Of a DNA stretch of 63,711 nt, positions 283 through 12,259 are shown piece after piece (the stretch's first letter is position 1; each line of letters opens with the position of its first letter). A program made the position numbers and the translations under genes. The notes under the pieces were generated by a model that was not told the DNA's origin, searched no databases, and saw only the letters and a list, made by a program, of their open reading frames with translations. Origin of the DNA: a virus; IMG/VR virus record IMGVR_UViG_3300021976_000012, positions 1 through 63,711 of that record; one strand, 5' to 3'.

Positions 283-355
283 GCAGATATGGAGCAATTG
301 GCAGCTCACCTGATTCTCAATCAGGAGGTTACGGGTTCGATCCCCGTTATCTGTA
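283..355 (+). tRNA. tRNA-Glu (CTC)
   Basis: Full cloverleaf: acceptor GCAGATA/TATCTGT, D-stem GAGC/GCTC, anticodon stem CCTGA/TCAGG with loop TTCTCAA (anticodon CTC), T-arm ACGGG-TTCGATC-CCCGT, discriminator A355. CCA is not encoded; a single C follows, as after nearly every tRNA here. Confidence 0.93.
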
Positions 356-360
356 CGCAC

Positions 361-545
361 CACAGGTAGTGTACAATGCTTGTGGAAGGTAAGTCGGTAA
401 ACATATGAATAGAAACTATTGAAGGCACTGTAAGCTCGTCTTTGTCAGGATGACGCCAACTCTAGCACAATGTTCATATGGCTATATTAGTAGACAATAG
501 ACATGCTCGCACTGTGACGGGTGCCTCCGTATGTTGAGTTGAAAG
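361..545 (+). other. Non-coding, strongly folded spacer between tRNA-Glu and tRNA-Ile
   Basis: No convincing ORF. It contains several crossing inverted repeats: CATATGAA (402-409) with TTCATATG (473-480), CTATTG (416-421) with CAATAG (495-500), GGCACT (424-429) with GGTGCC (520-525), and a local hairpin AATAG-AAA-CTATT. The crossing order would give a pseudoknotted RNA. The outer GGCACTG/GGGTGCC pair resembles a tRNA acceptor stem, but no canonical T-loop is present. It may be a decayed tRNA or a structured ncRNA. Confidence 0.35.
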
Positions 546-559
546 TTAGCACCGACCAA

Positions 560-633
560 TGGTCATTAGCTCAATTGGTTAGAGCGCTGTGCTGATAACG
601 CAGAGGTACACAGTTCGAAACTGTGATGACCAA
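560..633 (+). tRNA. tRNA-Ile (GAT)
   Basis: Acceptor TGGTCAT/ATGACCA, D-stem GCTC/GAGC, anticodon stem CTGTG/CGCAG with loop CTGATAA (GAT), T-arm CACAG-TTCGAAA-CTGTG, discriminator A633. The first pair is T-A rather than the usual G-C. The next gene starts with ATG at 635, one nucleotide after the discriminator. Confidence 0.92.
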
Positions 634-634
634 C

Positions 635-820
635 ATGGAACCTAGCTTAAATGATTTAGACAGATGTGAACATGGTAGACACAGTATTGATAACTGTTTC
701 AGTTGTCCTGATAGATGGTCTACAGGAAACTTATTTTTAGAAAATGGTCAACGAATTGGTACCACTTTATATGGTGAACCAATATTTGTAATAACAGTTA
801 GACATCGCAGAAAATTTTGA
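635..820 (+). CDS. Zinc-binding-type miniprotein, 61 aa
   Basis: Starts MEPSLNDLDRCEHGRHS and carries a CxHGRHxxxxCxxC metal-ligand pattern (residues about 10-21), common in small actinophage proteins. There is no Shine-Dalgarno: the sequence upstream of ATG 635 is the tRNA-Ile acceptor stem. Upstream in-frame starts lie inside the tRNA and are rejected. Translation is likely leaderless after tRNA processing (inference). Confidence 0.7.
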   Translation: MEPSLNDLDRCEHGRHSIDNCFSCPDRWSTGNLFLENGQRIGTTLYGEPIFVITVRHRRKF

Positions 821-825
821 TTCAT

Positions 826-897
826 GGCCTCGTTGAGTATGGGTTAGCTTCTGAGTTTTTCACACTCAAGGACAGGGTTCGAGTCCCTGCGAGGCTA
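826..897 (+). tRNA. tRNA-Glu (TTC)
   Basis: Acceptor GGCCTCG/CGAGGCT (G-U at 1-72), anticodon stem TGAGT/ACTCA with loop TTTTCAC (TTC), T-arm CAGGG-TTCGAGT-CCCTG, discriminator A897. The D-stem GAGT/GCTT uses G-U pairs. ATG of the next gene is at 899. Confidence 0.85.
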
Positions 898-898
898 C

Positions 899-1108
899 AT
901 GCCGAGAAGTATAGTAAGTAACATATCTATAACTGAACCAATGACACTAGAAGATTTACGTTGGTTAGTAAATCAAACTATTGGCTATCCTCCAGATAGT
1001 AAAGTAACAGTTGTAGCACATAAAGAATATAACCAAATGGATTGGGACGCAGCAAAAATTACTGTGAGCGCAGATCTTAAAAGCGCTGATACAGAAGCAG
1101 AAGAATAA
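899..1108 (+). CDS. Hypothetical protein, 69 aa
   Basis: Acidic C-terminus (ADTEAEE). The segment TLEDLRWLVNQTIGYPPDSKV resembles a motif found in small phage proteins of unknown role. ATG lies 1 nt after the tRNA-Glu discriminator and there is no ribosome-binding site, so this is another candidate leaderless gene. Confidence 0.7.
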   Translation: MPRSIVSNISITEPMTLEDLRWLVNQTIGYPPDSKVTVVAHKEYNQMDWDAAKITVSADLKSADTEAEE

Positions 1109-1118
1109 TTAAATACTA

Positions 1119-1226
1119 GCACATGAGGCCATGTAGCGAGGCAGCGGACTTTGGGTCCGGCTAGGTAGATGCAACATAACGGTCATAAATCCTAAGGTGA
1201 ATGTGGTGCGACTCCACACTTGTGCA
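1119..1226 (+). tRNA. Atypical tRNA-Gln-like gene (TTG anticodon, expanded variable region)
   Basis: Acceptor GCACATG/CTTGTGC (6 of 7 pairs), short D-stem GCC/GGC, anticodon stem CGGA/TCCG with loop CTTTGGG (TTG), T-arm TGTGG-TGCGACT-CCACA, discriminator A1226. The T-loop differs from TTCRANN only at position 55. The variable region is about 42 nt, closed by CTAGG/CCTAAG, far longer than any class II tRNA. Total length is 108 nt. It could be a divergent tRNA, a tRNA with an inserted arm, or a decoy. Confidence 0.4.
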
Positions 1227-1227
1227 C

Positions 1228-1287
1228 GGTAGTCTGACCGACTCTTAATCGGCATGATTGCAAGTGACTGTCAGGTCACGGCTGCCA
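1228..1287 (+). tRNA. Putative D-armless tRNA-Lys-like RNA (CTT)
   Basis: Starts 1 nt after the preceding element. Acceptor GGTAGTC/GGCTGCC pairs over all 7 positions with G-U. Only TG separates it from the anticodon arm CCGA-CTCTTAA-TCGG (anticodon CTT), so there is no D-arm. A T-like arm follows, GTGAC-TGTCAG-GTCAC (6-nt loop), then discriminator A1287. A normal tRNA-Lys(CTT) with the same anticodon loop exists at 12162. Functionality is unproven. Confidence 0.35.
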
Positions 1288-1330
1288 ACAGTACCTAGTC
1301 GCTGACACGGCGAAGTTGAGGCAGTTTTAA

Positions 1331-1402
1331 CGGGTTGTAGCTCATCGGTAGAGTGTCTGGCCTGGGACCAGAAAGTAGTAGGTTCAATTCCTACCTGCCC
1401 GA
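1331..1402 (+). tRNA. tRNA-Pro (TGG)
   Basis: Acceptor CGGGTTG/CTGCCCG with a T-T mismatch at pair 6, D-stem GCTC/GAGT, anticodon stem TCTGG/CCAGA with loop CCTGGGA (TGG), T-arm GTAGG-TTCAATT-CCTAC, discriminator A1402. The next gene starts at GTG 1404. Confidence 0.92.
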
Positions 1403-1403
1403 C

Positions 1404-1688
1404 GTGATTAAAAAGTTAATAGTTCCAATCATAGGATCACTGCTGTTAGTTACACTTGGTGCTGCTAATTGTGATTACAAAGATCCAGGTTTGCCCCCGC
1501 ATCCTGGTGTAAGCTATCCTCAAACACCTCTTACAGGTTCAGATGCTACTTATGATCCAGACATAAACTTTGGTAGTGCACCAGCACCATTAGAAGGTAC
1601 AAAGTGTACCAAATCGGGACAAGAAAAACGAGATCCTGGTACTGGTGAATTCGTTAGATGTGTCAATAAGATCTGGAAGCGTATATGA
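1404..1688 (+). CDS. Predicted lipoprotein, 94 aa
   Basis: The N-terminus VIKKLIVPIIGSLLLV followed by TLGAANC is a signal peptide with a lipobox (Cys23), so export and lipid anchoring are predicted. The mature part is proline-rich with two further Cys (KCTK...RCVN). GTG 1404 is one base after tRNA-Pro; earlier in-frame codons lie in the tRNA. Function unknown; superinfection exclusion is a guess from the class only. Confidence 0.65.
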   Translation: MIKKLIVPIIGSLLLVTLGAANCDYKDPGLPPHPGVSYPQTPLTGSDATYDPDINFGSAPAPLEGTKCTKSGQEKRDPGTGEFVRCVNKIWKRI

Positions 1689-2053
1689 AAAAGAAATACA
1701 ATCATGGTGAAGCTTTTTGCTTGATGAAGTATCAATCTGATGATGGTACTGAACAAGAGATCATCTGGAATAGCAGAGATGGCGTTACTCCAATGGTGAT
1801 CACAATGAAATCTGGTAAGACTGGAACACATGTCGATTGGTACAACGATAAGTGTGTTCCTGATCATGTACCAAGTCCAGGTGATAGAATCTTCATAGAT
1901 CTAACAGAAGAAAAAGCATTAGAAATTGCTATGAAGAATCTTAAGCGTTGGGAAGATGACGGCTTAGACATGCGTACTGCTCCTAATGCTATAGCACTAG
2001 CACAAGAATACATGGAACGAACAGGTTCACCAGATATTAAAGTTGTGGAATAG
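1685..2053 (+). CDS. Hypothetical phage protein, 122 aa
   Basis: Overlaps the lipoprotein stop (ATGA), implying coupled translation. The sequence contains EIIWNSRDGVTPMVI, a conserved-looking segment of uncharacterised phage and bacterial proteins, with nearby His/Cys residues (HVDWYNDKCVPDH) and an amphipathic C-terminal helix. No enzymatic motif recognised. Confidence 0.7.
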   Translation: MKKKYNHGEAFCLMKYQSDDGTEQEIIWNSRDGVTPMVITMKSGKTGTHVDWYNDKCVPDHVPSPGDRIFIDLTEEKALEIAMKNLKRWEDDGLDMRTAPNAIALAQEYMERTGSPDIKVVE

Positions 2054-2061
2054 CACAAAAT

Positions 2062-2142
2062 GGGTGTGTCCTAGCGGTCTAGGAATCGGTCTGTAAAACC
2101 GATGTGCATAGCACACTGTTGGTTCGACACCAACCATGCCCA
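2062..2142 (+). tRNA. tRNA-Tyr (GTA), class II
   Basis: Acceptor GGGTGTG/CATGCCC, anticodon stem TCGGT/ACCGA with loop CTGTAAA (GTA), long variable arm TGTGC-ATA-GCACA as expected for bacterial tRNA-Tyr, T-arm GTTGG-TTCGACA-CCAAC, discriminator A2142. The D-loop is short (CCTAG-CGGT-CTAGG). Confidence 0.9.
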
Positions 2143-2345
2143 CGAAGTATCTGACATATGTACTCACCAAGCGTCATGTATTCCGTATGCGAATAGGAAT
2201 ATTTGATGGGACTGGTATGGGATCGCACCTAATATGTTGAAGAATTGATGACCGAACCAATACTGACAGTTCAAAACTGTCCTAGTGAAACGGTCTAGAG
2301 ATGCTATAAATACACATGTTGGTTGAAAGCATCTTTTCTTCACTC
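2143..2345 (+). other. Non-coding structured segment with a T-arm-like hairpin
   Basis: No ORF of note. Three hairpins are visible: GTATTCC/GGAATAT (with flanking TCA/TGA), GGT...ACC, and a canonical T-arm GACAG-TTCAAAA-CTGTC (2265-2281) enclosed by GACCG (2250-2254) and CGGTC (2291-2295). A further pair AGATGCT/AGCATCT (2298-2332) is followed by TTTTCTT and may end transcription. No matching tRNA acceptor was found, so this may be a relic tRNA or a structured leader. Confidence 0.3.
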
Positions 2346-2374
2346 ACTACCATAATGAAAGGAGGTTGAAAAAT

Positions 2375-2503
2375 ATGTGGCACATTCCGTTTAAATGGAT
2401 TAGTGATTTACTAGACAAGAAGTACTGGGTGTGCAAGCACCGCTGGTGCTTTCGGGAGGCCACCTATGATTATAGATGTCCTCTTCATCAAAATGATCCG
2501 TGA
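2375..2503 (+). CDS. Cys/His-rich miniprotein, 42 aa
   Basis: ATG 2375 is preceded by a strong ribosome-binding site (AAAGGAGG, about 10 nt upstream). The product MWHIPFKWISDLLDKK... continues into a VCKHRWCF...YRCPLH region, a compact set of Cys/His that could bind one zinc. Ends 7 nt before tRNA-Ala. Confidence 0.6.
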   Translation: MWHIPFKWISDLLDKKYWVCKHRWCFREATYDYRCPLHQNDP

Positions 2504-2510
2504 AAAACTC

Positions 2511-2583
2511 GGGGTTTTAGCTCATCTGGTAGAGCGCTGCTTTTGCAAGGCAGAGGTGGTCGGTTCGAGTCCGACAAGCTCCA
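2511..2583 (+). tRNA. tRNA-Ala (TGC)
   Basis: Acceptor GGGGTTT/AAGCTCC, D-stem GCTC/GAGC, anticodon stem CTGCT/GGCAG with loop TTTGCAA (TGC), T-arm GTCGG-TTCGAGT-CCGAC, discriminator A2583; then C and an ATG. Confidence 0.94.
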
Positions 2584-2584
2584 C

Positions 2585-2725
2585 ATGAAAAAAGTATTAA
2601 ATGTAACACATGAATTTCTCATAGATATCTGGGAAGGAATAGTAAACTTCGTAGAGCAAGAAGCGTTCTGGATTATAAATGTAATCAACACTATATTACT
2701 AATCATCCTCCTTATAATAAAATAA
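2585..2725 (+). CDS. Small membrane protein, 46 aa
   Basis: MKKVLNVTHEFLIDIWEGIV followed by a hydrophobic C-terminal half (FWIINVINTILLIILLIIK) predicted as one membrane span. The start is 1 nt after tRNA-Ala with no ribosome-binding site; earlier in-frame codons fall in the tRNA. Confidence 0.65.
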   Translation: MKKVLNVTHEFLIDIWEGIVNFVEQEAFWIINVINTILLIILLIIK

Positions 2726-2765
2726 GTACTTGCAATCGTATCACAACGGTGAGAGGTGAAGTTGT

Positions 2766-3521
2766 ATGAGTGATGTTGCTGCGATACCTAATCCAGATAT
2801 CTCTACTATGTATTTTGATAATAATCCTATTCGATATTTCATGCATAATGAAGTTCTCTATGTTTGTGGTATAGATGTCACAAAAGCCTTCGGATATAAA
2901 GATGAATATGGACCACTCAGAACCGTTGAAGATGAAGACCGGGTAGTTTTACAGGTTCAGAATAGTCGTGTACAATTACGTCCGACTATTTTCATCAATG
3001 AGCCGGCTTTTTACGAATTAGCATTCAGATCAAACCTAGAAGCTGCTAGACGCTTTACCCGCAAAGTATCAGGAGAAATCTTACCAGCCATTCGTAGGAC
3101 TGGAAGATATGAAGGTGAAAGTTTAAACGCAATAGTCGGTAATACTGCTCGTCCTTGGGAACGTATGTATGATGAAGATTTTCGTGCATTAATTCCATCG
3201 ACTGGCATGTCTGCACCACAGTTCTATGAATTTCTTTATACCAGATTACATCCAGAGGGCACCTTAGATTCTATGAGATCGAGAATTGTAAAGAAATTCT
3301 CTGGTGGAAGAAAAGATAACTACGATATAGATACTGGTCTTCGAGTTCGCCTTCACCAATACTTCACAGATCTTGGAAGAAGTTCAAATAAATTCAAACA
3401 AGAGCAACTAGCACTTATTATTCAATACATGCTTAGTGGTAATTGTAATAAAAAAGAATTTCTAGTAGTATGCAATAAGGTCTTTAAACTAAGGGATCCA
3501 TTAGCTATCACAGCAAAATAA
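2766..3521 (+). CDS. BRO-N domain protein (phage antirepressor-like), 251 aa
   Basis: Residues about 15-115 fit the BRO-N/antirepressor fold: YFMHNEVLYVCGIDVTKAFG, then R-VEDEDR, FINEPAFYELAFRSN, ARRFTRKVSGEILPAIRRTG. BRO-N proteins bind DNA and act as regulators or antirepressors. The C-terminal half (about 125-251) is unassigned. GAGAGGTGAA lies upstream of ATG 2766. It sits within the tRNA array rather than beside an obvious repressor, so its target is unknown. Confidence 0.85.
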   Translation: MSDVAAIPNPDISTMYFDNNPIRYFMHNEVLYVCGIDVTKAFGYKDEYGPLRTVEDEDRVVLQVQNSRVQLRPTIFINEPAFYELAFRSNLEAARRFTRKVSGEILPAIRRTGRYEGESLNAIVGNTARPWERMYDEDFRALIPSTGMSAPQFYEFLYTRLHPEGTLDSMRSRIVKKFSGGRKDNYDIDTGLRVRLHQYFTDLGRSSNKFKQEQLALIIQYMLSGNCNKKEFLVVCNKVFKLRDPLAITAK

Positions 3522-3535
3522 TTCAAACAAAATAT

Positions 3536-3607
3536 GCCATAATAGTGTAGAGGTCTGCACACTAGATTGTCAATCTAGAAGTCGGGGATCGTTCCCCCGT
3601 TGTGGCG
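3536..3607 (+). tRNA. tRNA-Asp (GTC)
   Basis: Acceptor GCCATAA/TTGTGGC, D-stem GTGT/GCAC, anticodon stem CTAGA/TCTAG with loop TTGTCAA (GTC), T-stem CGGGG/CCCCG, discriminator G3607 as usual for Asp. The T-loop ATCGTTC departs from TTCRANN at two positions. Confidence 0.85.
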
Positions 3608-3720
3608 CGTAGGATATAGTGATGGAAGCGCGGCCACGCATATTGGTTGTATGAGGAGCCTCATTTGTGAGCTAGGTGTGCACACCGAATTCATGATAGT
3701 AGGAAGTAACTGTATCTTAC
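3608..3720 (+). other. Non-coding folded spacer between tRNA-Asp and a His-type tRNA-like element
   Basis: Contains ATGAG-GAGC-CTCAT and GGTGTGCACACC hairpins and an anticodon-arm-like CATA-TTGGTTG-TATG (loop would read GGT, Thr). GGATATA (3612-3618) could pair with TGTATCT (3711-3717) as an acceptor, but no T-arm is present. It may be another decayed or rearranged tRNA. Confidence 0.25.
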
Positions 3721-3724
3721 TGTA

Positions 3725-3799
3725 GTTCCGTATAGCCCAAATGGAAGAGGCGGCTGGTCATTCGGCGTCAATGTGTAGGTTCGATTCCTACTGCGGAAC
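3725..3799 (+). tRNA. tRNA-like gene with His-type acceptor and disrupted anticodon arm
   Basis: Eight-pair acceptor GTTCCGTA/TGCGGAAC, i.e. the extra G(-1):C73 pair specific to tRNA-His, and a canonical T-arm GTAGG-TTCGATT-CCTAC. The D-stem is GCC/GGC. The region where the anticodon arm should be (GGCTGGTCATTCGGCGTC) does not form a 5-bp stem with 7-nt loop and has no GTG anticodon. It is therefore either a pseudogene or a tRNA-like element retained for processing. Confidence 0.5.
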
Positions 3800-3813
3800 C
3801 TTAAGGAGGCATT

Positions 3814-4065
3814 ATGGCTATTGAAAGAAAGTACGGAAGAGTCACCACAGAACGTGGTACCATCGGTGAAGATGAGCCTGTGGTGGTTTTCCGAGCACAG
3901 GATGCTCTGCTTCCAGAATTACTAGCAATGTATTTGCACATATGTCATACGGCTGGATCTCCACAACACCATCTTGATGGAATCAAGAAGACAATAGTCG
4001 AAGTAGAAGCGTGGCAGGCAAAAAACTTCACTAAGATTCCAACCAGTGATAGTTGGAGACCGTGA
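3814..4065 (+). CDS. Conserved phage hypothetical protein, 83 aa
   Basis: Strong ribosome-binding site AAGGAGG 6 nt before ATG 3814, unlike the genes that abut tRNAs. The pattern MAIERKYGRVTTERG...DEPVVVFRAQD...LPELLAMY resembles a small protein common in actinobacteriophages. No catalytic motif is known to me. The next GTG overlaps its stop. Confidence 0.75.
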   Translation: MAIERKYGRVTTERGTIGEDEPVVVFRAQDALLPELLAMYLHICHTAGSPQHHLDGIKKTIVEVEAWQAKNFTKIPTSDSWRP

Positions 4066-4235
4066 AAATACATGTGATTAATGTGGAAACCATGGTCACT
4101 TATTGTAGCAAGGGTGTCTACGGTGACAAAGCTATAACATTAGAAGATGCTAGAGACATGACAAACAATCTATTCTTTGACTGCGAAGACTGCTACAAAA
4201 TACTATCAGATGACAATGAAGCAGTCAGTGAATAG
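4062..4235 (+). CDS. Hypothetical protein, 57 aa
   Basis: GTG 4062 overlaps the preceding TGA (GTGA) with GGAGA upstream; a TTG at 4053 is the alternative. The product has FFDCEDCYKIL, a CxxC pair. Unknown function. Confidence 0.55.
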   Translation: MKIHVINVETMVTYCSKGVYGDKAITLEDARDMTNNLFFDCEDCYKILSDDNEAVSE

Positions 4236-4261
4236 TTTTCCCTAACAGATGGGAAATAGTC

Positions 4262-5272
4262 ATGCTCTATGGTGTTGATGTACATGATGGATACCAAAAG
4301 GGTCTATCATTTCCACTACTTGCACGACAGGGATATTCCTTTGCAGCAGTGAAGCTTACCCAAGGTGTTGATTATGCTCGTGATTTGGGCGATGATTGGG
4401 TTCGGGCATCACGTGACGCAGGTTTAATTCCTGGTGCTTATCATTGGATAACTCGGACTGATGGTGCTACACAGGCTCGCTGGTTCTATAAAAAGATATT
4501 AGAATCTGGTGGACCTACTGGTATGCTCATTCAGCTCGACTGTGAAGCCGACGCTACCTATCAAGATGTACTAAACTGGAAGGCAGAATGGAATAGGTTA
4601 TCAAACAACCACCCATTCTTGCTTTACACTGGTAAGTGGTGGTGGGATGCTAGAAACTGGAATGGACCAAACGTAACTCCGTACCTGTGGGACTCACATT
4701 ACATTAGTGCAGACACAGATACAATCCAAGATGATCCAGCAACATTCGCTGCTAAGATTCCTGCCTCATACTTTAATCCAGGATATGGTAGTTGGACTTC
4801 TAACTCAATACTTCAGTTTACAAGCAGAGGTGATGCTGGTTCGCTCGGCAACAACGTCGATCTAAATGTTACTCGTATGACACGTGAGCAATTAGTTGCA
4901 TTAACAGGCACGACAGTTGATGTAGGAGCGAAAGGAACAGACATCATGATAAGTAGAGTCGCAATGGTTCGGGTACGAGTTGATGGTGTGCTACCTCCAG
5001 CAGACAAGCCGAACTCTTTCTATGTTGGCGATGGAATCTTCTATACCAATGCTGTCACCTGGAATCAGGTTACTGATGCTCAGGCAGAGGGAGCAAAAAC
5101 TAAAACGTACACAGAAGATGATGATTGGAAAGGTTGGGTAGGACGTAATCTGGCAGGCGCAACAAGCGCACCAGTAACCGCGACTATCACTCAGGATCAG
5201 CTCAACGCGGCTGTCCTAGCGAACGTACCGGCCATCGCAGCGGCGCTAGCGTCCCACATCAAGGTCGTATAA
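4262..5272 (+). CDS. Endolysin, GH25 muramidase, 336 aa
   Basis: Glycoside hydrolase family 25 domain at about 1-215: GVDVHDGY near the N-terminus (catalytic Asp6), SFAAVKLTQG, PGAYHWIT, and IQLDCEAD with the second acidic pair. It would cleave the glycan of the host cell wall for release. Residues about 225-336 are a separate region (GWVGRNLAGATSAPVTATIT...) with no recognised wall-binding repeat. The only lysis enzyme seen. No holin is adjacent; candidate membrane proteins lie at 31524 and 41371. A strong hairpin follows the stop. Confidence 0.9.
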   Translation: MLYGVDVHDGYQKGLSFPLLARQGYSFAAVKLTQGVDYARDLGDDWVRASRDAGLIPGAYHWITRTDGATQARWFYKKILESGGPTGMLIQLDCEADATYQDVLNWKAEWNRLSNNHPFLLYTGKWWWDARNWNGPNVTPYLWDSHYISADTDTIQDDPATFAAKIPASYFNPGYGSWTSNSILQFTSRGDAGSLGNNVDLNVTRMTREQLVALTGTTVDVGAKGTDIMISRVAMVRVRVDGVLPPADKPNSFYVGDGIFYTNAVTWNQVTDAQAEGAKTKTYTEDDDWKGWVGRNLAGATSAPVTATITQDQLNAAVLANVPAIAAALASHIKVV

Positions 5273-5292
5273 AAAGTTTTTACGGTTTGTCG

Positions 5293-5327
5293 CTGGTGGC
5301 TATAGACACAAAGGTCGTAGCCACCAG
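5293..5327 (+). terminator. Hairpin after the endolysin gene
   Basis: Perfect 10-bp stem CTGGTGGCTA/TAGCCACCAG with a 15-nt loop. Only a weak T-run (ACCTTTCTCTC) follows and tRNA-Asn starts 9 nt later, so it may be a terminator or a processing/stability element. Confidence 0.5.
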
Positions 5328-5335
5328 TAGACCTT

Positions 5336-5406
5336 TCTCTCATAGCACAATGGTAGTGCGGTCGGCTGTTAACCGATTGATCTTAGTTCGATTCTAGGTG
5401 AGAGAG
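5336..5406 (+). tRNA. tRNA-Asn (GTT)
   Basis: Acceptor TCTCTCA/TGAGAGA, D-stem GCAC/GTGC, anticodon stem GTCGG/CCGAT with loop CTGTTAA (GTT), T-arm CTTAG-TTCGATT-CTAGG, discriminator G5406. CC then ATG follow. Confidence 0.92.
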
Positions 5407-5408
5407 CC

Positions 5409-5792
5409 ATGAACCTACCTTGGGATGATCCCAACCATGATGTTTTAGCAGATATTAGAAAAGCATATCAAGATGGATGGAATAAACTAGGTATGAGCGT
5501 ACCAATGAAACCAAGCGATCCAGCATATTGGATGTTGTCTAGTCCACATACAAGCACACCTACAGTGTTCCGAAAAGGCTGTTACATTTGTGAAGATCCT
5601 GAGTTTGCACAAATGGGTATGCCACTATGTAAACCATGTAAACCATGTCAAGAAGCTGGACGTGGTGATGGGCACAGTGCTGCCGACAATCCTATTTGTG
5701 ATGATTGTGGTCATGAATGTCACCCAGAATGTGGATGCTACCCGGAGCTAATGAATAATGACAATAATAGTAATGACATCGGGGTCGTTTGA
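5409..5792 (+). CDS. Cys-rich zinc-type protein, 127 aa
   Basis: The N-terminal half is helical (PNHDVLADIRKAYQDGWN). The C-terminal half holds many Cys/His: GCYICEDPEF, LCKPCKPCQE, ICDDCGHECHPECGC, consistent with two or more zinc knuckles. Start 2 nt after tRNA-Asn without a ribosome-binding site. Overlaps the next gene by 35 nt. Confidence 0.7.
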   Translation: MNLPWDDPNHDVLADIRKAYQDGWNKLGMSVPMKPSDPAYWMLSSPHTSTPTVFRKGCYICEDPEFAQMGMPLCKPCKPCQEAGRGDGHSAADNPICDDCGHECHPECGCYPELMNNDNNSNDIGVV

Positions 5793-6186
5793 TCTCTTCC
5801 ACATCGGTCATGCTAGGTATTTAGAATCTGCTGCATCATATGGTACACTGTTAATTGTAGCAGTAGAAACTGATGAACTAGTTCGAATGCGGAAGGGTCC
5901 TGGACGTCCAGTAATCCCACAGGCTGAACGCTTAGAGATGGTTCGCTATCACCGTAGTGTTAGTGATGTAGTACTTAAAAAACCCGGTGAAAACATTGCT
6001 GAGAAGTACAGTCCTGACCTAATTATTGTTAGCGATGATAGACCTAGACCCAAGATTCCAAATGTAAATGTTATTGTTCTGCCAAGGATGGCACAAACTT
6101 CTACTAGCAATATTGTTCGTAACATTGAGATTCACAGAAGAGAAGATGCTACACGGTATGAAAAAGGCGATCGTCTGGTACCATAA
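5758..6186 (+). CDS. Cytidylyltransferase-like nucleotidyltransferase, 142 aa
   Basis: HIGH-superfamily nucleotidyltransferase: SGSFDLFHIGHARYL (residues 8-22, HxGH active site) and the C-terminal TSTSNIVR nucleotide-binding motif. It resembles glycerol-3-phosphate cytidylyltransferase/RfaE2-type enzymes that transfer CMP or AMP to a small phosphorylated substrate; the substrate cannot be told. CGGAGC precedes ATG 5758 and starting here keeps the first beta strand (MTIIVMTSG). A phage copy could modify nucleotides, glycans or NAD metabolism (inference). Confidence 0.8.
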   Translation: MTIIVMTSGSFDLFHIGHARYLESAASYGTLLIVAVETDELVRMRKGPGRPVIPQAERLEMVRYHRSVSDVVLKKPGENIAEKYSPDLIIVSDDRPRPKIPNVNVIVLPRMAQTSTSNIVRNIEIHRREDATRYEKGDRLVP

Positions 6187-6493
6187 AGATGGAGATAGTC
6201 TTGCTTTAGTCACTGAGCCATGGTGGGTACCAACCTTTGAATTTTTAATTCATCGCATCGCACCATGCTGTGGTTTATTTGGCTGGTTGTCAAGCAAATC
6301 AGATAAATTTAGTGAATTACTTTTCGATATAAATGGAAATCTACAAAACTTTGCATACAAAAAGCAAAGAGAAATTTATACTACACCAATTGAATCAGGA
6401 TGCAAAGCATCTGTAGCTCTTTACGGTATCAAAGGTCATTCATGCTGGAAAGATGAATGCGAATATAAGGAGGAAGATATGCCTGACTTGTAA
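6146..6493 (+). CDS. Hypothetical protein, 115 aa
   Basis: ATG 6146 preceded by GAAGAGAAG is preferred; ATG 6158 is possible and the upstream open frame is shadow. Contains RIAPCCGLFGW and GHSCWKDECEY. It looks like a soluble small-domain protein. Overlaps the nucleotidyltransferase by 41 nt. Confidence 0.65.
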   Translation: MLHGMKKAIVWYHKDGDSLALVTEPWWVPTFEFLIHRIAPCCGLFGWLSSKSDKFSELLFDINGNLQNFAYKKQREIYTTPIESGCKASVALYGIKGHSCWKDECEYKEEDMPDL

Positions 6494-6512
6494 GTACCAG
6501 AAGTACTGGTAC
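6494..6512 (+). promoter_or_regulatory. Small hairpin just upstream of a ribosome-binding site
   Basis: GTACCAG-AAGTA-CTGGTAC forms a perfect 7-bp stem directly before AGGAGAGG of the next gene. It may shield or expose that site, or be an mRNA processing point. Confidence 0.35.
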
Positions 6513-6525
6513 AGGAGAGGCATAT

Positions 6526-6882
6526 GTGTCCAACACGGACAAGACCAAACCATACTGGGTTCAGATCATGCAAAATCGTGAACTTCAAATTGAAGATCAT
6601 GACCATCGTAATGGTATTTGTGATCTAGACTTCAGAATCAAACCATGGCGTGATTACACTTCTTGCAACTATCATATTAGATACTACAGTAAGACTGGTA
6701 GAAGGATTTTCGGTCGTCCATCTAAGGCAGAACAATCTTATCGAGCAGAAGCAAATGGCAGTGCACGTACCAAGCTTCGTAACGCTGTTAGTGAACTACG
6801 TAAAATGGCTATTGAGGATGTCGAGGACTGGGATATAGTTATTCCTCGCCACCGTCACTCTGCTCTCTGGGATGTGGATTAA
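6526..6882 (+). CDS. Hypothetical protein, 118 aa
   Basis: GTG 6526 with GGAGAGG 6 nt upstream. Rich in aromatic and basic residues (WRDYTSCNYHIRYYSKTGRR) and ends in an acidic/His stretch. No family recognised. Confidence 0.7.
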   Translation: MSNTDKTKPYWVQIMQNRELQIEDHDHRNGICDLDFRIKPWRDYTSCNYHIRYYSKTGRRIFGRPSKAEQSYRAEANGSARTKLRNAVSELRKMAIEDVEDWDIVIPRHRHSALWDVD

Positions 6883-6883
6883 G

Positions 6884-7087
6884 ATGGTGTATCTTGATTG
6901 TCCAGATGCTTTGTATGGAAGACATGGACCTACAGATAGTTATGGTAAGTGTCCATGGTGTGGTAAAAAAGTTGAGAGTGTAGCATTAAAACCACGGGCA
7001 GATCGCAATGTAAAATCTGATGCTTTAGCATCTTACGATTACTATTATGATCCTGATTATGGCATTGATCCTTATGATCGCTACTAG
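6884..7087 (+). CDS. Zinc-ribbon miniprotein, 67 aa
   Basis: ATG 6884 lies just after the previous stop; ATG 6872 would overlap it and lacks a ribosome-binding site. Contains LDCPDALYGRHGPTDSYGK and CPWCGKK (zinc ribbon). The tail is Tyr/Asp-rich (YDYYYDPDYGIDPYDRY). Confidence 0.6.
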   Translation: MVYLDCPDALYGRHGPTDSYGKCPWCGKKVESVALKPRADRNVKSDALASYDYYYDPDYGIDPYDRY

Positions 7088-7092
7088 GAGTG

Positions 7093-7362
7093 ATGGTGAT
7101 ACGAGATCCTGTAAAATGGAGCGCGTACCAAAAACAAAGGTATAAAGAATCAAGACTAAGAGCATTAGCAATACTTGGAAACAAGTGCGACTCCTGTGGT
7201 GATGATGAATTAGATCATCTACAACTAACTTACAAAGATGGATCTATAAGTGGTAGTCCACCAAGTAGAATCCTTAATATATCCAAGGCTAGATTCGATG
7301 TAGAGATTAAGAAATGTAAAGCTGTATGTTTAAGGTGCTACAACATTAATAGATACCAATGA
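7093..7362 (+). CDS. HNH-like zinc-finger protein, possibly inactive, 89 aa
   Basis: Pattern CDSCG...LDHLQL...KKCKAVCLRCYNINRYQ matches the zinc-binding HNH fold with CxxC...DH...CxxC. The usual HN of the last helix is YN, so nuclease activity may be lost. Starts are crowded (GTG 7090, ATG 7093, GTG 7096) behind AGGAG; ATG 7093 chosen. Confidence 0.6.
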   Translation: MVIRDPVKWSAYQKQRYKESRLRALAILGNKCDSCGDDELDHLQLTYKDGSISGSPPSRILNISKARFDVEIKKCKAVCLRCYNINRYQ

Positions 7363-7373
7363 CAACTTAATAT

Positions 7374-7446
7374 GATCCGTTAGCTCAGATGGTAGAGCAG
7401 CGTCCCTTTAAGTCGCGTGTCCTCGGTTCGACCCCGAGACGGATCA
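7374..7446 (+). tRNA. tRNA-Lys (TTT) with C33
   Basis: Acceptor GATCCGT/ACGGATC, D-stem GCTC/GAGC, anticodon stem GCGTC/GTCGC with a T-T mismatch, loop CCTTTAA (TTT), T-arm CTCGG-TTCGACC-CCGAG, discriminator A7446. Position 33 is C instead of the near-universal T. ATG follows at 7448. Confidence 0.88.
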
Positions 7447-7447
7447 C

Positions 7448-7672
7448 ATGAACAAAATTACGCTAGAAGAGCTAAGATATATAACACGATTGACCCAACT
7501 AGCTGTAGCAGATAAAATGGGAAACCAACAATCAACCGTATCAGATATGGAAAGGGCTTTCCCACTCAATTGTAGATTAAGTACACTTCGTAGATACATT
7601 GATGCTATTGGTGGTGAACTAACAATAAGCATTAAGTTAGATAAAGAAACTTATATTTTGACCCACGAATAA
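7448..7672 (+). CDS. XRE-family helix-turn-helix regulator, 74 aa
   Basis: LTQLAVADKMGNQQSTVSDMER is a Cro/CI-type helix-turn-helix (residues about 15-38), followed by LSTLRRYIDAIGGELTISI, the usual end of such single-domain regulators. It starts 1 nt after tRNA-Lys with no ribosome-binding site. A DNA-binding repressor is likely; its operator is unknown, and the TGTCCGA elements at the right end are a candidate worth testing. Confidence 0.8.
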   Translation: MNKITLEELRYITRLTQLAVADKMGNQQSTVSDMERAFPLNCRLSTLRRYIDAIGGELTISIKLDKETYILTHE

Positions 7673-7678
7673 AAACAG

Positions 7679-7749
7679 TCAGGTATTGTGTAATGGTAGC
7701 ACGTCGCACTTTGGATGCGAAAGTCCTAGTTCGAACCTAGGTATCTGAG
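7679..7749 (+). tRNA. tRNA-Gln (TTG)
   Basis: Acceptor TCAGGTA/TATCTGA, D-stem GTGT/GCAC, anticodon stem TCGCA/TGCGA with loop CTTTGGA (TTG), T-arm CCTAG-TTCGAAC-CTAGG, discriminator G7749. Confidence 0.93.
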
Positions 7750-7791
7750 CGTAGCAATTGCTACAAAATTACAAACTAGCTGGGAATTAAA

Positions 7792-8733
7792 TTGACATTT
7801 ACATTTGGAGTATTCCTATTCGTCGCATTACCACTAGCAGTGATATTCTTCTTCGTGATGCGTCATTATCAGAAGAAGCTACATGTACTCACAGTAGAAG
7901 GTGGTCGTCACTCAAGCATTGATTCTGCTGATTTTGCTGCTACTGGTAATAAATGGGGATTTGGGATCGCTACTGCGCTTGCCATTCTCATGTTGGTACT
8001 GTCCAGTGTATGGTTCGTACCAGTACGCAACGTAGGTATTGTTACTGCGTTCAATAACCCTACTGGGACCACCACAGGTAGTGGCCTTAAGGTTACCTGG
8101 CCCTGGGAAGAAGTTGTTGATTTTGACGCTTCGATTCAGGTTTCAGACCATACTGGTGACAAGAATTGTTCTACAGTTCGTATTGGTTCACTAGCTACGG
8201 CGTGTGCTGAGAACCGTATTCAGTGGCAGGTATTGGATTCAGCAGCTCCTAAGTTGTACAAGGATTACAAAGGTAACTTTGAGAATCTGAAGAATAACTT
8301 GGTAGAAACGAAAATCCAAAATGCCCTAAATACGGTATTTGCCACATATAACCCTTTGGCACAGGTAAACATTCAGACTGGACAGACCAGCTTTGATGGT
8401 GCTAAGCTTGGCAAAGACGTTGAGGACGAACTAAACAGAACTATCGGATCTGATATTAAGATTGTATCTGTATCAATTCCGCTCGTTCACCACGACGCCA
8501 AGACTGAAAACAACATCAAGTCATTCCAAGATGTTATCGCCAATGCCCGTATTCTTGACCAGCTATCTTCTAATGCTGACAAGGAAAAGGCAATTGCAGA
8601 TAAGCAAAGAGTCTTCCTTACCCCAGAGTACATCCAAAACAAGTGTGTTGACGAGTCAGTCAAAATGGGCGTTCCGCCTGGCTTGTGTCTCGTTGGCGGA
8701 GGAGCAATCGTAAATGCGCAAACCACAAAGTAA
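7792..8733 (+). CDS. SPFH/Band-7 domain membrane protein, 313 aa
   Basis: Two N-terminal membrane spans (FGVFLFVALPLAVIFFFVM and GIATALAILMLVLSSVWFV) followed by a prohibitin-type SPFH domain (VRNVGIVTAFNNPTG...VDFDASIQVSD...) and a helical region (SSNADKEKAIADKQR). These proteins form membrane rings and microdomains. TTG 7792 is the only start keeping the first span, as TAG lies just upstream. The overlapping lipoprotein gene suggests both act at the envelope, perhaps in exclusion of other phages (inference). Confidence 0.85.
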   Translation: MTFTFGVFLFVALPLAVIFFFVMRHYQKKLHVLTVEGGRHSSIDSADFAATGNKWGFGIATALAILMLVLSSVWFVPVRNVGIVTAFNNPTGTTTGSGLKVTWPWEEVVDFDASIQVSDHTGDKNCSTVRIGSLATACAENRIQWQVLDSAAPKLYKDYKGNFENLKNNLVETKIQNALNTVFATYNPLAQVNIQTGQTSFDGAKLGKDVEDELNRTIGSDIKIVSVSIPLVHHDAKTENNIKSFQDVIANARILDQLSSNADKEKAIADKQRVFLTPEYIQNKCVDESVKMGVPPGLCLVGGGAIVNAQTTK

Positions 8734-9013
8734 ATTCTGGACTGTTTGGCTAGCAGTTGTTGGCATTGCCATTGCAGGTATCTTTTCACTCAGTGCCTGT
8801 GGTATTGGTAAGGCAGTAGAACCATTTAAGGATGCGCCTGTCGGTGTTCAAAATAATGGTTCAGCCGACGGTGTTAGTATGCCAGATGGTTTCTCGAACG
8901 TGTCTACCAAGTGTGATCACGGCAATAGAATTTATGTTGCTTACCATGGTGACAATACATATGCTGCAATTGCTGTAGTAGCAGGCGACCCAACCTGTGG
9001 TACTGGTCAATGA
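8714..9013 (+). CDS. Predicted lipoprotein, 99 aa
   Basis: Basic N-terminus MRKPQSKFW, hydrophobic span and lipobox FSLSAC (Cys29), so a membrane-anchored exported protein. Strong GGAGGAG lies in the end of the SPFH gene. The mature region has two further Cys. Co-transcribed and overlapping with the SPFH gene; both probably work together. Confidence 0.8.
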   Translation: MRKPQSKFWTVWLAVVGIAIAGIFSLSACGIGKAVEPFKDAPVGVQNNGSADGVSMPDGFSNVSTKCDHGNRIYVAYHGDNTYAAIAVVAGDPTCGTGQ

Positions 9014-9168
9014 ACAAAGCGACTTTTGAGCGTGCATTAAAAGCAGTAGCTGCTGGTAAGGCACTCAAGGAAGTTAAAGTTAGAAATGTAGAAACTGATG
9101 TTGTTCTCTCTATTAAGAGCATTAGATTTGATGGAGTAGACGACACAATTTACATTGAAGTAGAATAG
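9010..9168 (+). CDS. Small hypothetical protein, 52 aa
   Basis: ATG overlaps the lipoprotein TGA (ATGA). The product begins MNKATFERALKAVAAGKALK and is soluble with an acidic end (IYIEVE). Unknown role. Confidence 0.6.
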   Translation: MNKATFERALKAVAAGKALKEVKVRNVETDVVLSIKSIRFDGVDDTIYIEVE

Positions 9169-9192
9169 ATAAGAGGGCTCGCAAGAGCCTGC

Positions 9193-9266
9193 GCGAGCGT
9201 ACGCTAATGGTTAGTGCGGCCAATCTTATAAATTGGTGGTTATGGGTTCAAGTCCCATCGCTCGTA
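9193..9266 (+). tRNA. tRNA-Ile (TAT)
   Basis: Acceptor GCGAGCG/CGCTCGT, D-stem CGCT/AGTG, anticodon stem CCAAT/ATTGG with loop CTTATAA (TAT, reads ATA), T-arm ATGGG-TTCAAGT-CCCAT, discriminator A9266. A GGCTC-GCAA-GAGCC hairpin lies just upstream (9177-9190). GTG follows at 9268. Confidence 0.88.
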
Positions 9267-9267
9267 C

Positions 9268-9612
9268 GTGCGTATACACGTACTAGATTCTAAACTAGTA
9301 CCACACTTTGATTTGCGACGTGATGGCAATGAATGGTATTGGACACCCAAGGAGAAATACAAAGTGGAACAAGATACGCCACCGCTATACAAAATAACAT
9401 CATTACCAGAAGAACTTAAGACACATTATAAGTGTGGTATATGCGATTCAGAAATTTCCATGGATGATGCTGCAATGCTACAGTTAGCAATGGAAAAGCA
9501 CGAATGTATAAATGATTCTGTTGGTCCATGGTACTCGTACATCTTTACATTCTGGTCTGCATTCATAGTGCTTGTTGTCTGTGTCACATTGGTTAAAATT
9601 TTTGCAAAATAG
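9268..9612 (+). CDS. Zinc-finger membrane protein, 114 aa
   Basis: GTG 9268 lies 1 nt after tRNA-Ile. The central KCGICDSEISMDD...MEKHEC is a zinc-finger-like motif. A C-terminal span, IFTFWSAFIVLVVCVTLVKI, anchors the protein. No ribosome-binding site is possible within the tRNA end. Confidence 0.65.
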   Translation: MRIHVLDSKLVPHFDLRRDGNEWYWTPKEKYKVEQDTPPLYKITSLPEELKTHYKCGICDSEISMDDAAMLQLAMEKHECINDSVGPWYSYIFTFWSAFIVLVVCVTLVKIFAK

Positions 9613-9618
9613 AAATAT

Positions 9619-9689
9619 GCCTCCATTGCATAATGGTAATGCCATGCTCTTGTAAAGCATTGATCGGTGTTCGATTCACCGTGGAGGCT
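9619..9689 (+). tRNA. tRNA-Thr (TGT)
   Basis: Acceptor GCCTCCA/TGGAGGC, D-stem GCAT/ATGC, anticodon stem ATGCT/AGCAT with loop CTTGTAA (TGT), T-arm CGGTG-TTCGATT-CACCG, discriminator T9689. GTG follows at 9691. Confidence 0.94.
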
Positions 9690-9690
9690 C

Positions 9691-9837
9691 GTGACAAATA
9701 AAATTCAGCAAGTTAAATTGACAGGAGGTAGTACCACTGTACGTACGGTATTTCTGGTACTAATTCCTTTCACCTGCGGGTTAAGTATTATTCCTTGGAT
9801 TGCCTACGAGATTATTCATTGGGCAGGTAAACATTAA
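9691..9837 (+). CDS. Small membrane protein, 48 aa
   Basis: GTG 9691 starts 1 nt after tRNA-Thr. VTNKIQQVKLTGG precedes a hydrophobic span (VFLVLIPFTCGLSIIPWIAY). The stop overlaps the next ATG by one base (TAATG). Confidence 0.6.
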   Translation: MTNKIQQVKLTGGSTTVRTVFLVLIPFTCGLSIIPWIAYEIIHWAGKH

Positions 9838-10013
9838 TGGACTTTCTGACTTATGTACTTCTCACTTTACCTATTGCGATATTCATTGCCGGTTTGGTGA
9901 TGATGTATGCATATGGATATAAGCATGGCAAGCGTGACACAATAAGAAACATGACAGAGACACTAGAAATGGGGAAACTTCCAAACTATGAGTCAGGCAA
10001 ACATGTTAGATGA
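9837..10013 (+). CDS. Small membrane protein, 58 aa
   Basis: N-terminal span YVLLTLPIAIFIAGLVMMYA then a basic/polar tail (YKHGKRDTIRNMTETLEM). It forms a coupled pair with the preceding membrane miniprotein. Confidence 0.6.
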   Translation: MDFLTYVLLTLPIAIFIAGLVMMYAYGYKHGKRDTIRNMTETLEMGKLPNYESGKHVR

Positions 10014-10209
10014 CGCCACACCAATATTCAGTTATGAAGAAATTCGACTCAACTATCTGAGTACAGCAGATTCCTATGTAATAACAACTCCACTTGGAAG
10101 ATGGATTGCATTACCATCTGAGAATTTAGAAGACATGCTTGTGATTCTCACAGCAGCTAAGAATCATCGTGATTTCGGATTTGCTGTCTGCAACGATGAG
10201 ATCTACTAA
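9988..10209 (+). CDS. Hypothetical protein, 73 aa
   Basis: MSQANMLDDATPIFSYEEIR... ATG 9988 (or 10003) overlaps the membrane protein end. It resembles the next product in layout (VITTPLGRWIALPSENLEDMLVILTAAKNHRDFG), suggesting a duplicated small domain. The stop overlaps the next ATG. Confidence 0.65.
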   Translation: MSQANMLDDATPIFSYEEIRLNYLSTADSYVITTPLGRWIALPSENLEDMLVILTAAKNHRDFGFAVCNDEIY

Positions 10210-10400
10210 TGACTACTCCCAAAAAGATATACGACAATGGAGCAATATCAGTTAAGCATGACGGTGACTTTAACACTTACTTGATTTCTAATGTCTATGG
10301 CAATGGTCATGTTAGAATTCCAGCAGGTGACTTAGAGAAATTTGCAAGTGCAATTCAGATAGCACAATTACATCGTGATCATGGTGAGATTAATGGCTAG
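10209..10400 (+). CDS. Hypothetical protein, paralogue-like of the preceding gene, 63 aa
   Basis: Shares the pattern LISNVYGNGHVRIPAGDLEKF...AIQIAQLHRDHG with the upstream product (small beta-hairpin then a helix ending in HRD). This looks like an in-place duplication. Overlaps the next start by 8 nt. Confidence 0.65.
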   Translation: MTTPKKIYDNGAISVKHDGDFNTYLISNVYGNGHVRIPAGDLEKFASAIQIAQLHRDHGEING

Positions 10401-10632
10401 TAACGCAGCAAGATTCGAAGAAATTTCACCTGGAGTATTTCGTACATTCAAGCTTCAGAGTGATGGGGGTGGCAAATCATTCAAGACATACAAAGAAGCA
10501 GTTGATCATGTTGCTGTTCAAGAAGAATTGTGGAATTCTAGTATTCATGGTAGAATGGAATATAGAATTGACATGATTGATACCACCATAATTAGTCTTG
10601 ATGGTGAAATAATGAACGAACCACCAAAATGA
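10393..10632 (+). CDS. Hypothetical protein, 79 aa
   Basis: ATG 10393 (MASNAARFEEISPGVF) chosen; the upstream GTG lies deep in the previous gene. No motif recognised. Ends 11 nt before tRNA-Gln(CTG). Confidence 0.6.
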   Translation: MASNAARFEEISPGVFRTFKLQSDGGGKSFKTYKEAVDHVAVQEELWNSSIHGRMEYRIDMIDTTIISLDGEIMNEPPK

Positions 10633-10643
10633 TTAAGCACCAT

Positions 10644-10716
10644 TCTACCGTAGTGTAATTGGTAGCACACCTGACTCTGAATCAGGAGATTTCAAGTTCG
10701 AGTCTTGACGGTAGAA
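10644..10716 (+). tRNA. tRNA-Gln (CTG)
   Basis: Acceptor TCTACCG/CGGTAGA, D-stem GTGT/GCAC, anticodon stem CCTGA/TCAGG with loop CTCTGAA (CTG), T-arm TCAAG-TTCGAGT-CTTGA, discriminator A10716. Confidence 0.94.
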
Positions 10717-10850
10717 CCTTGGGCGCCCAGGTTGGGATAACTTAGCTGTGTCATAGGCTGTCTAGCACTCCTTATAGTTCGCGCGAATAAGTGATCTAGG
10801 CTGAGCAGCATAAAGAAGGATAGGGGTTCAAATCCTCCCCGCTCACTCAT
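10717..10850 (+). ncRNA. Structured RNA ending in a tRNA-like acceptor/T-arm minihelix
   Basis: Non-coding. TGGGCGCCCA palindrome, then a long hairpin joining CTAGCACT with AGTGATCTAG through CTTAT/ATAAG. The last 45 nt form a minihelix: acceptor TGAGCAG (10802-10808) with CCGCTCA (10839-10845, 6 of 7 pairs) and T-arm AGGGG-TTCAAAT-CCTCC, with no D or anticodon arm between. Such minihelices are minimal RNase P/RNase Z substrates. It could be a tRNA relic or a processing signal. Confidence 0.35.
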
Positions 10851-10877
10851 AATAAAACTTAATGAATGTAGGTAGCA

Positions 10878-11216
10878 ATGGCTGGGAGAACTAATATAAA
10901 GCTTAGTGATGAGCTTAGAGATAGACTGTCAGAATTAAGAAAAAATGCTGGTAATCCTTCATTAACTCATATGGGATTAGTTGTTGGGGTTAGTCCATCT
11001 ACAATTCGTACTGCTATGTCTGGTTATTCAGTAAGATGGAAGACATATCAGGCAATACTAGAAGCATTAAATGCTACTGAAGAACAGATATTAGAGTTCC
11101 GTAATGCTTGGATTAGATCTAAGACATCAGTAATGCCAGAGGTTCAAGGCCCACTGTGGGCACAGGAACTTCATAGGAAGTTTGATCTGATTATCGAAAT
11201 GTTGGAGAAGAAGTAA
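10878..11216 (+). CDS. Helix-turn-helix DNA-binding protein, 112 aa
   Basis: Residues about 25-60 (SLTHMGLVVGVSPSTIRTAM) fit an XRE-like helix-turn-helix, followed by an amphipathic C-terminal helix (ELHRKFDLIIEMLEKK) likely used for dimerisation. A small transcription regulator is likely; target unknown. Confidence 0.7.
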   Translation: MAGRTNIKLSDELRDRLSELRKNAGNPSLTHMGLVVGVSPSTIRTAMSGYSVRWKTYQAILEALNATEEQILEFRNAWIRSKTSVMPEVQGPLWAQELHRKFDLIIEMLEKK

Positions 11217-11222
11217 AGGTTT

Positions 11223-11295
11223 GCCCGCGTAGCTCAATGGACAGAGCAAAACCCTTCTAAGGTTGATGTTGCTGGTTCGAATCCAGTCGCGGGCA
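11223..11295 (+). tRNA. tRNA-Arg (TCT)
   Basis: Acceptor GCCCGCG/CGCGGGC, D-stem GCTC/GAGC, anticodon stem 3' end GGTT with loop CTTCTAA (TCT), T-arm GCTGG-TTCGAAT-CCAGT, discriminator A11295. The outer anticodon pair is A-G. Confidence 0.92.
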
Positions 11296-11303
11296 CGAAC
11301 AAA

Positions 11304-11342
11304 ATGGAATCCCCCACCATAAAAAGGACACCCCACCAGTGA
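11304..11342 (+). CDS. Possible 12-residue leader peptide
   Basis: ATG 11304 encodes MESPTIKRTPHQ and its TGA overlaps the GTG start of the next gene (GTGA). It starts 8 nt after tRNA-Arg. It may couple translation to the downstream gene, or be coincidence. Confidence 0.25.
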   Translation: MESPTIKRTPHQ

Positions 11343-11629
11343 TAGAACTAAATACTAAACCTTGGTGTAACTGTCACACCACAGGTAAATGGCTAAGACA
11401 GGACGGGTATACGCTCGACCGTGCATCTGGTATATGGGTTCACAGTCGCTGTAGTAAGCCTAGTCGGATGAACTATGACCGTAATGTGCTTGGTCTGCCA
11501 CAGATCCCACAACAGCGTAAGTCTGATGATATTTACGAAGACGAACGCAAATATGATCTGCGGAAAATGGCTATGGCAGAAATTAATTCTGAATTAGATT
11601 GGGATGATGACGACGACGATGACTATTAA
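11339..11629 (+). CDS. Cys-rich protein with acidic tail, 96 aa
   Basis: GTG 11339 with AAAAGGA upstream. PWCNCHTTGKWL...HSRCSKP has zinc-ligand-like Cys/His. The C-terminus is a run of Asp (DWDDDDDDDY), which suggests nucleic-acid mimicry or metal binding, but this is speculative. Confidence 0.65.
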   Translation: MIELNTKPWCNCHTTGKWLRQDGYTLDRASGIWVHSRCSKPSRMNYDRNVLGLPQIPQQRKSDDIYEDERKYDLRKMAMAEINSELDWDDDDDDDY

Positions 11630-11630
11630 T

Positions 11631-12098: not shown

Positions 12099-12113
12099 AT
12101 AAAGATCAATGTA

Positions 12114-12157: not shown

Positions 12158-12161
12158 GCCA

Positions 12162-12234: not shown

Positions 12235-12259
12235 CAATATCTAACGAAAGGAGGAGAAT

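Follow-up and report, generated by a model that had tools for sequence, protein, structure and literature searches.

How is a gene translated when its start codon lies directly against the 3′ end of a transfer RNA (tRNA) gene? This question is raised by the tRNA array of a 63,711-base virus record in IMG/VR (IMGVR_UViG_3300021976_000012; 42% guanine plus cytosine, GC), the whole of which is referred to here as the window. Sixteen tRNAs were called in the window by ARAGORN, all on the plus strand and spanning positions 283-12235. The calls were cross-checked with Rfam, which agreed, tRNA-Tyr appearing there only as a sub-threshold Sec-type match. Eight of the sixteen tRNAs are followed directly by an ATG or GTG codon that opens an open reading frame (ORF) of 46 to 127 codons. 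These joins suggest, with a probability that we put at roughly three in four, a phage form of tRNA punctuation, in which tRNA excision after an encoded C at position 74 (C74) would free leaderless mRNAs of the adjoining genes. Of the mechanisms considered, only processing of the tRNA 3′ end accounts for joins that are exact to one base.

The Eight Junctions

All eight junctions lie on the plus strand. They are written here with the discriminator (N73) and the following C set off by hyphens, and the start codon after a slash. tRNA-Ile(GAT) (560-634; N73 is A and C74 is position 634) runs into the ATG at 635 (CCA-A-C/ATG), which opens a Cys/His-rich gene of 61 amino acids (635-820) without a Shine-Dalgarno sequence (SD). 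tRNA-Glu(TTC) (826-898, C74 at 898; GCT-A-C/ATG) is followed by an ATG-initiated gene of 69 amino acids (899-1108) with a weak PHROG match only, and tRNA-Pro(TGG) (1331-1403, C74 at 1403; CCG-A-C/GTG) by a GTG-initiated gene of 94 amino acids (1404-1688). From residue 2 on, the N terminus of the latter's product resembles a signal peptide (VIKKLIVPIIGSLLLVTLGAANC), in keeping with a start at the junction GTG. tRNA-Ala(TGC) (2511-2584, C74 at 2584; TCC-A-C/ATG) precedes an ATG-initiated gene of 46 amino acids with a hydrophobic C terminus (2585-2725), and tRNA-Lys(TTT) (7374-7447, C74 at 7447; ATC-A-C/ATG) precedes an ATG-initiated gene for a helix-turn-helix protein of 74 amino acids (7448-7672), in which the domain match begins at residues 4-11. 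tRNA-Ile(TAT), or Ile2 (9193-9267, C74 at 9267; CGT-A-C/GTG), and tRNA-Thr(TGT) (9619-9690, C74 at 9690; GGC-T-C/GTG) abut GTG-initiated genes of 114 (9268-9612) and 48 (9691-9837) amino acids, respectively.

The sole irregular join is that of tRNA-Asn(GTT) (5336-5408), which ends in G73-C74-C75 (AGA-G-CC/ATG) ahead of an ATG-initiated gene of 127 amino acids assigned to PHROG_4694 (5409-5792). The original prediction had placed all eight starts one or two nucleotides past the discriminator, and its coordinates and start codons, ATG and GTG, were reproduced throughout. Its statement that none of the tRNAs encodes CCA failed at this join; tRNA-Asn does encode CCA (5336-5411), its A76 being the A of the downstream ATG. 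The 5409 start is the least certain of the eight: conservation of the product sets in only some way inside the frame, and translation could instead begin at an ATG near 5493.

N73-C74 is encoded at all sixteen tRNAs of the array, abutting or not, and the C is thus best regarded as part of the tRNA and not of a leader. Chance was assessed by scoring, at each offset behind CCA-less tRNAs, every ATG or GTG that starts an ORF 40 or more codons long. In the window, 7 of the 15 CCA-less tRNAs open such an ORF at offset 0, compared to a mean of 0.07 at offsets 1-60; with the rate in other actinophages as background, the probability of such a count is P = 6e-11. Many genes of the window do not adjoin any tRNA.

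Junctions in Other Phages

A search of related phages for conserved NCATG and NCGTG joins, proposed earlier as a check, was run and bore out the pattern. IMG/VR was searched for a T-arm followed by the join, N73-C-RTG, and for a control with two bases between the C and the start codon, C-NN-RTG. ORFs behind the join pattern had a median length of 44 codons, and 42 of 128 reached at least 60, compared to a median of 12 codons and 12 of 131 for the control. At the other, unselected CCA-less tRNAs of all loci fetched to that point, 27 ORFs of at least 60 codons were found at offset 0 versus 0-8 at other offsets, and only two lay directly behind CCA-encoding tRNAs; this set is enriched, half of its loci having been chosen for one such join. 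A fairer test was provided by seven named actinophages picked regardless of the trait: LilMartin, Byblos, and Ankus (Streptomyces), Trina and Peregrin (Rhodococcus), Sixama (Gordonia), and Bipolarisk (Mycobacterium). Their 183 CCA-less tRNAs open 13 ORFs of at least 40 codons at offset 0, compared to a mean of 1.85 at offsets 1-60 (P = 6e-8). None of the 19 CCA-less tRNAs of the Synechococcus phage S-PM2 has an ORF at the join, and the tRNAs of phages T5 (Escherichia) and KVP40 (Vibrio) encode CCA and showed no joins.

Starts of this kind are already present in deposited annotations, in which coding sequences (CDSs) begin directly past a tRNA (LilMartin genes 155, 200, 205, and 235; Trina gene 200; gene 157 of the Streptomyces phage Angela). 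In Sixama, two HNH endonuclease genes (record positions 84131-84587 and 86804-87095) were annotated downstream of a GTG that abuts tRNA-Glu and tRNA-Asp, respectively, and these junction GTGs are probably the true starts of both. Angela gene 142 (record positions 85922-86114) has its GTG start behind a tRNA-like 3′ half that was not called by ARAGORN and is likely an unannotated or decayed tRNA. Two low-GC phage contigs (L082 and L113) contain four tRNA-gene joins each, some with genes of more than 200 amino acids, and may show the same system outside the known actinophage clusters.

Proposed Mechanism

The array is probably transcribed as a long polycistronic RNA. Each tRNA would be excised from it by RNase P at the 5′ end and by a host tRNA 3′ endonuclease directly past the encoded C74, leaving a 5′-monophosphate mRNA that opens directly with its AUG or GUG start codon. 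Such a leaderless mRNA would be translated by the route widely used in actinobacteria, so that the start codon would be set by the tRNA end and not by an SD, and a single cleavage would both mature the tRNA and allow the gene next to it to be expressed. The sequences show the exact joins, their recurrence, the conserved N termini, and the lack of alternative signals; the cleavage after C74 and the leaderless translation of the junction genes are what we infer. The host of the window virus is probably an actinobacterium, judged from gene similarities only: the Band-7 protein matched only phages of Mycobacterium, Streptomyces, Gordonia, and Rhodococcus, the 5409 product matched only actinophages, and the matches of the portal protein include Gordonia and Mycobacterium phages, among others.

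Probable Site of tRNA 3′ Cleavage

RNase Z cuts CCA-less tRNAs after N73. The original prediction relied on this cut, by which the mRNA would keep a one-nucleotide C leader, and an RNase Z homologue is present in Streptomyces coelicolor (PMC4681348). We consider such a leader unlikely on three grounds. Mapping of 5′ ends in S. coelicolor showed that most CCA-encoding tRNAs are cut between C74 and C75 (PMC4681348), and examples of the same cut were found in Propionibacterium acnes, in which no obvious RNase Z was found (PMC3848588); by these cuts in two actinobacteria, the predicted mRNA is exactly leaderless. In mycobacteria, AUG or GUG at the RNA start is necessary and sufficient for leaderless initiation, whereas start codons at +2 to +5 appear to be used less efficiently (PMC4633059). 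Finally, C74 is present at abutting and non-abutting tRNAs alike, as if retained in the tRNA: among 200 CCA-less tRNAs of actinophages, 196 encode it and just 11 have a C at position 75, which marks the lone C as a constant element of the tRNA genes. The earlier proposal thus holds as to tRNA 3′ processing and was probably off by one as to the cut. C74 was also considered as an actinobacteria-specific signal, a notion that was dropped because other sampled phyla carry it too. A bias of ARAGORN toward C74 was rejected as well, since sixteen calls were still made after N74 was mutated in the window, and S-PM2 has T74 more often than C74.

Several observations weigh against excision after C74 as the source of these mRNAs. 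The published cut between the two Cs is known from CCA-encoding tRNAs. At CCA-less tRNAs of S. coelicolor, cuts were mapped within a few nucleotides downstream (PMC4681348), which would spoil the effect if general. C74 is likewise encoded in 33 of 35 CCA-less tRNAs of the other sampled phyla, and on both counts the cut position at the joins is putative. At tRNA-Asn, with CC before the ATG, a cut between the Cs would give a one-nucleotide leader; in a 14.6-kb contig of a relative (L012, the same contig as locus L001), tRNA-Asn has one C ahead of the ATG. The same join was seen in homologues for only two of the eight window joins, and the actinobacterial host is itself deduced. In addition, Bipolarisk, Peregrin, and Trina have one join or none, and the IMG/VR loci fetched with the control pattern gave 0 of 359 at offset 0, which makes the trait a property of certain phages rather than of tRNA genes at large.

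Ribosome-Binding and Promoter Signals

The bases upstream of the junction starts are the tRNA acceptor stem, and no accessible SD is found 5-10 nucleotides before them. Three plus-strand genes of the array that do not abut a tRNA provide the contrast: one at 2375-2503, one at 3814-4065 that starts 13 nucleotides past a tRNA end, and one at 12260-12382 that starts 24 nucleotides past. All three have the strong ribosome-binding sites that had been ascribed to them, with SD duplexes of -11 to -13 kcal/mol, compared to a mean of -3.1 for the eight abutting genes and -5.7 for other genes. The claim that no ribosome-binding site can exist at the eight starts requires one amendment: an accessible site is lacking, but GGAGG is held in the acceptor strand of tRNA-Thr. 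The homologous join in L012 lacks GGAGG and keeps the same start, indicating that an SD is not needed there. SD-like motifs hidden in the acceptor strand were also considered; they occurred at 27 of 93 junctions compared to 88 of 388 non-abutting tRNAs of the same loci, which was not convincing.

These comparisons also bear on the proposal that no mRNA is released at all and that the joins reflect extreme compaction only, with SD-independent or coupled initiation on the uncut transcript. The array is indeed tight, with CDSs ending 5-14 nucleotides ahead of the next tRNA at several sites, and at a minority of the junctions the acceptor strand is rich in purines. Compaction, however, predicts a spread of small offsets and overlaps, whereas the observed offsets pile up at a single base; each gene is set apart from the one upstream by a folded tRNA some 74 nucleotides long; and the genes 13-24 nucleotides past a tRNA end have strong SDs. 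On balance, this explanation appears improbable.

Of the hallmarks of actinobacterial leaderless genes, the junction starts show an ATG or GTG without an SD, with the exception of the Thr GGAGG, but show no enrichment, over control tRNAs, of a -10 element (TANNNT) about 7 nucleotides ahead of the start codon. The latter bears on a further possibility, that promoters within the tRNA genes produce primary transcripts starting at the ATG or GTG. Leaderless mRNAs made from promoters are common in actinobacteria (PMC4633059) and were predicted in cluster O mycobacteriophages (PMC4351075). When promoters hidden in the tRNAs were sought, TANNNT at the -10 position was not enriched over the whole stretch (5 of 93 junctions compared to 11 of 388 controls), and such promoters would leave the exactness of the join to the tRNA end unexplained, so that we give them very little credence.

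Conservation of the Junction Start Codons

Comparisons between relatives indicate where translation begins. In L012, the homologue of the 9268 product shares 50% overall identity with it and likewise begins at the tRNA-Ile join; the two proteins agree in all of their first 12 residues, and codons 2-15 contain four synonymous changes and one nonsynonymous change. The L012 homologue of the 9691 product starts at its tRNA-Thr join with ATG replacing GTG. When junction proteins were compared all against all, families aligned residue 1 to residue 1 across divergent phages, and ATG and GTG were exchanged at the join in at least six comparisons (LilMartin/L031, LilMartin/L020, L020/L107, L039/L092, L076/L082, and window/L012). 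No TTG opening an ORF of at least 40 codons was found at the join in the loci with the join pattern, as expected for leaderless initiation. Sequence conservation therefore supports the junction start codons as real wherever N-terminal conservation and start-codon swaps allow a test. That the ORFs are spurious or start further in is the least probable of the alternatives: no homologue is available for five of the eight window ORFs and 5409 has its plausible internal ATG, but residue 1 is conserved through start-codon swaps, the helix-turn-helix (7448) and signal-peptide (1404) N termini begin at the join, and glmU, described below, has no alternative start upstream of its first motif.

Junctions in Bacterial Chromosomes

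The join pattern was also found in bacterial genomes. Microbacterium commune and a second genome (L447) have the essential gene glmU immediately after tRNA-Gln(TTG), and in Planktophila versatilis an ANTAR response regulator follows tRNA-Leu in the same way. In most sampled actinobacterial genomes, a tRNA-Gln is located upstream of glmU, usually at a distance of tens to about 150 nucleotides. In four Microbacteriaceae genomes, the sole in-frame start upstream of the conserved part of glmU is at gap 0 (ATG, ATG, ATG, and GTG), and the first GlmU motif falls within 20 residues of this start. The GlmU tree requires three changes, two of which are forced by well-supported branches, so that the gap-0 spacing was gained (or lost) independently at least twice. 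A broader claim would be that punctuation is a general and so far unrecognised mode of expression in actinobacteria and their phages, glmU and the Planktophila regulator included, in which a tRNA 3′ endonuclease cut after C74 defines where protein genes start and the rate of tRNA maturation directly sets expression; we judge the odds of this to be even.

Long chromosomal ORFs right after a tRNA C74 were also observed outside the actinobacteria, in one Bacteroidales locus (L427) and two loci of candidate phyla (L383 and L375).

Relation to Known Systems

The closest parallel is tRNA punctuation in animal mitochondria, the model of Ojala, Montoya, and Attardi, in which a CDS abuts a tRNA without a spacer and excision would give leaderless or near-leaderless 5′ ends. 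The comparison, drawn in the original prediction, holds for the 3′ side, as seen in the eight window joins and the one-base spike in the seven actinophages. It does not extend to tRNAs flanking essentially all genes on both sides without a spacer; only the tRNA 3′ side is exact, with 5-14 nucleotides left before several tRNAs, and punctuation is limited to some genes, SDs being retained at others. The present cases also differ in lying in phage and bacterial chromosomes, and in a cut putatively placed after an encoded C74.

The leaderless genes of Mycobacterium, Streptomyces, and Propionibacterium resemble the junction genes in having AUG or GUG, without an SD, at or near the predicted RNA 5′ end. 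There, however, the 5′ end is a transcription start with a -10 box, whereas the junction mRNAs would arise by processing and carry a 5′ monophosphate. In Escherichia coli, tufB lies behind a tRNA cluster, shares a transcript with it, and is freed as mRNA by tRNA processing. Operons of this type keep a spacer with an SD, whereas nothing stands between tRNA and start codon in the junctions. Leaderless mRNAs are also made through endonuclease cleavage by E. coli MazF (mentioned in PMC3848588), a stress toxin that leaves a 5′ hydroxyl, in contrast to the tRNA maturation proposed here. Searches of the open-access literature, with subscription journals outside their scope, turned up no account of the arrangement in bacteria or phages, and the exact tRNA-gene join has apparently yet to be described outside mitochondria.

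If the proposal is correct, the tRNA end would join the SD and the transcription start as a third means of fixing where a bacterial gene starts. It would link tRNA supply to the expression of neighbouring phage genes, account for tRNA-array genes that lack a ribosome-binding site, and offer an exact rule for annotating start sites, as for the Sixama HNH genes. It also suggests that genome sequence can reveal where actinobacteria cleave tRNA 3′ ends, and glmU offers a test case in ordinary laboratory bacteria.

Other Features of the Array

Array genes at 4262-5272, 7792-8733, 11604-12098, 2766-3521, and 5758-6186 include GH25 lysin, Band-7, Fic, BRO-N, and cytidylyltransferase-like proteins. 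The Band-7 protein used as a scan query returned no viral relatives, and scans with two alignments (A2 and A1) returned only the relative already known. The tRNA at 3726-3800, 13 nucleotides upstream of the strong-SD gene at 3814, was given the anticodon '???' by ARAGORN and has an anticodon loop around CAT. Four ORF-poor stretches of tRNA size or longer (357-559, 1109-1330, 2144-2340, and 3609-3725) contain anticodon-arm-like segments that were called by neither ARAGORN nor Rfam, and are possibly degenerate or divergent tRNAs. Behind tRNA-Gln(CTG), an ORF-free stretch of about 135 nucleotides (10719-10857) is kept in the relative (about 5390-5520 of L012). It has no Rfam match and ends in a hairpin that resembles a T-arm and acceptor, and it possibly represents an unrecognised structured RNA or tRNA-like element.

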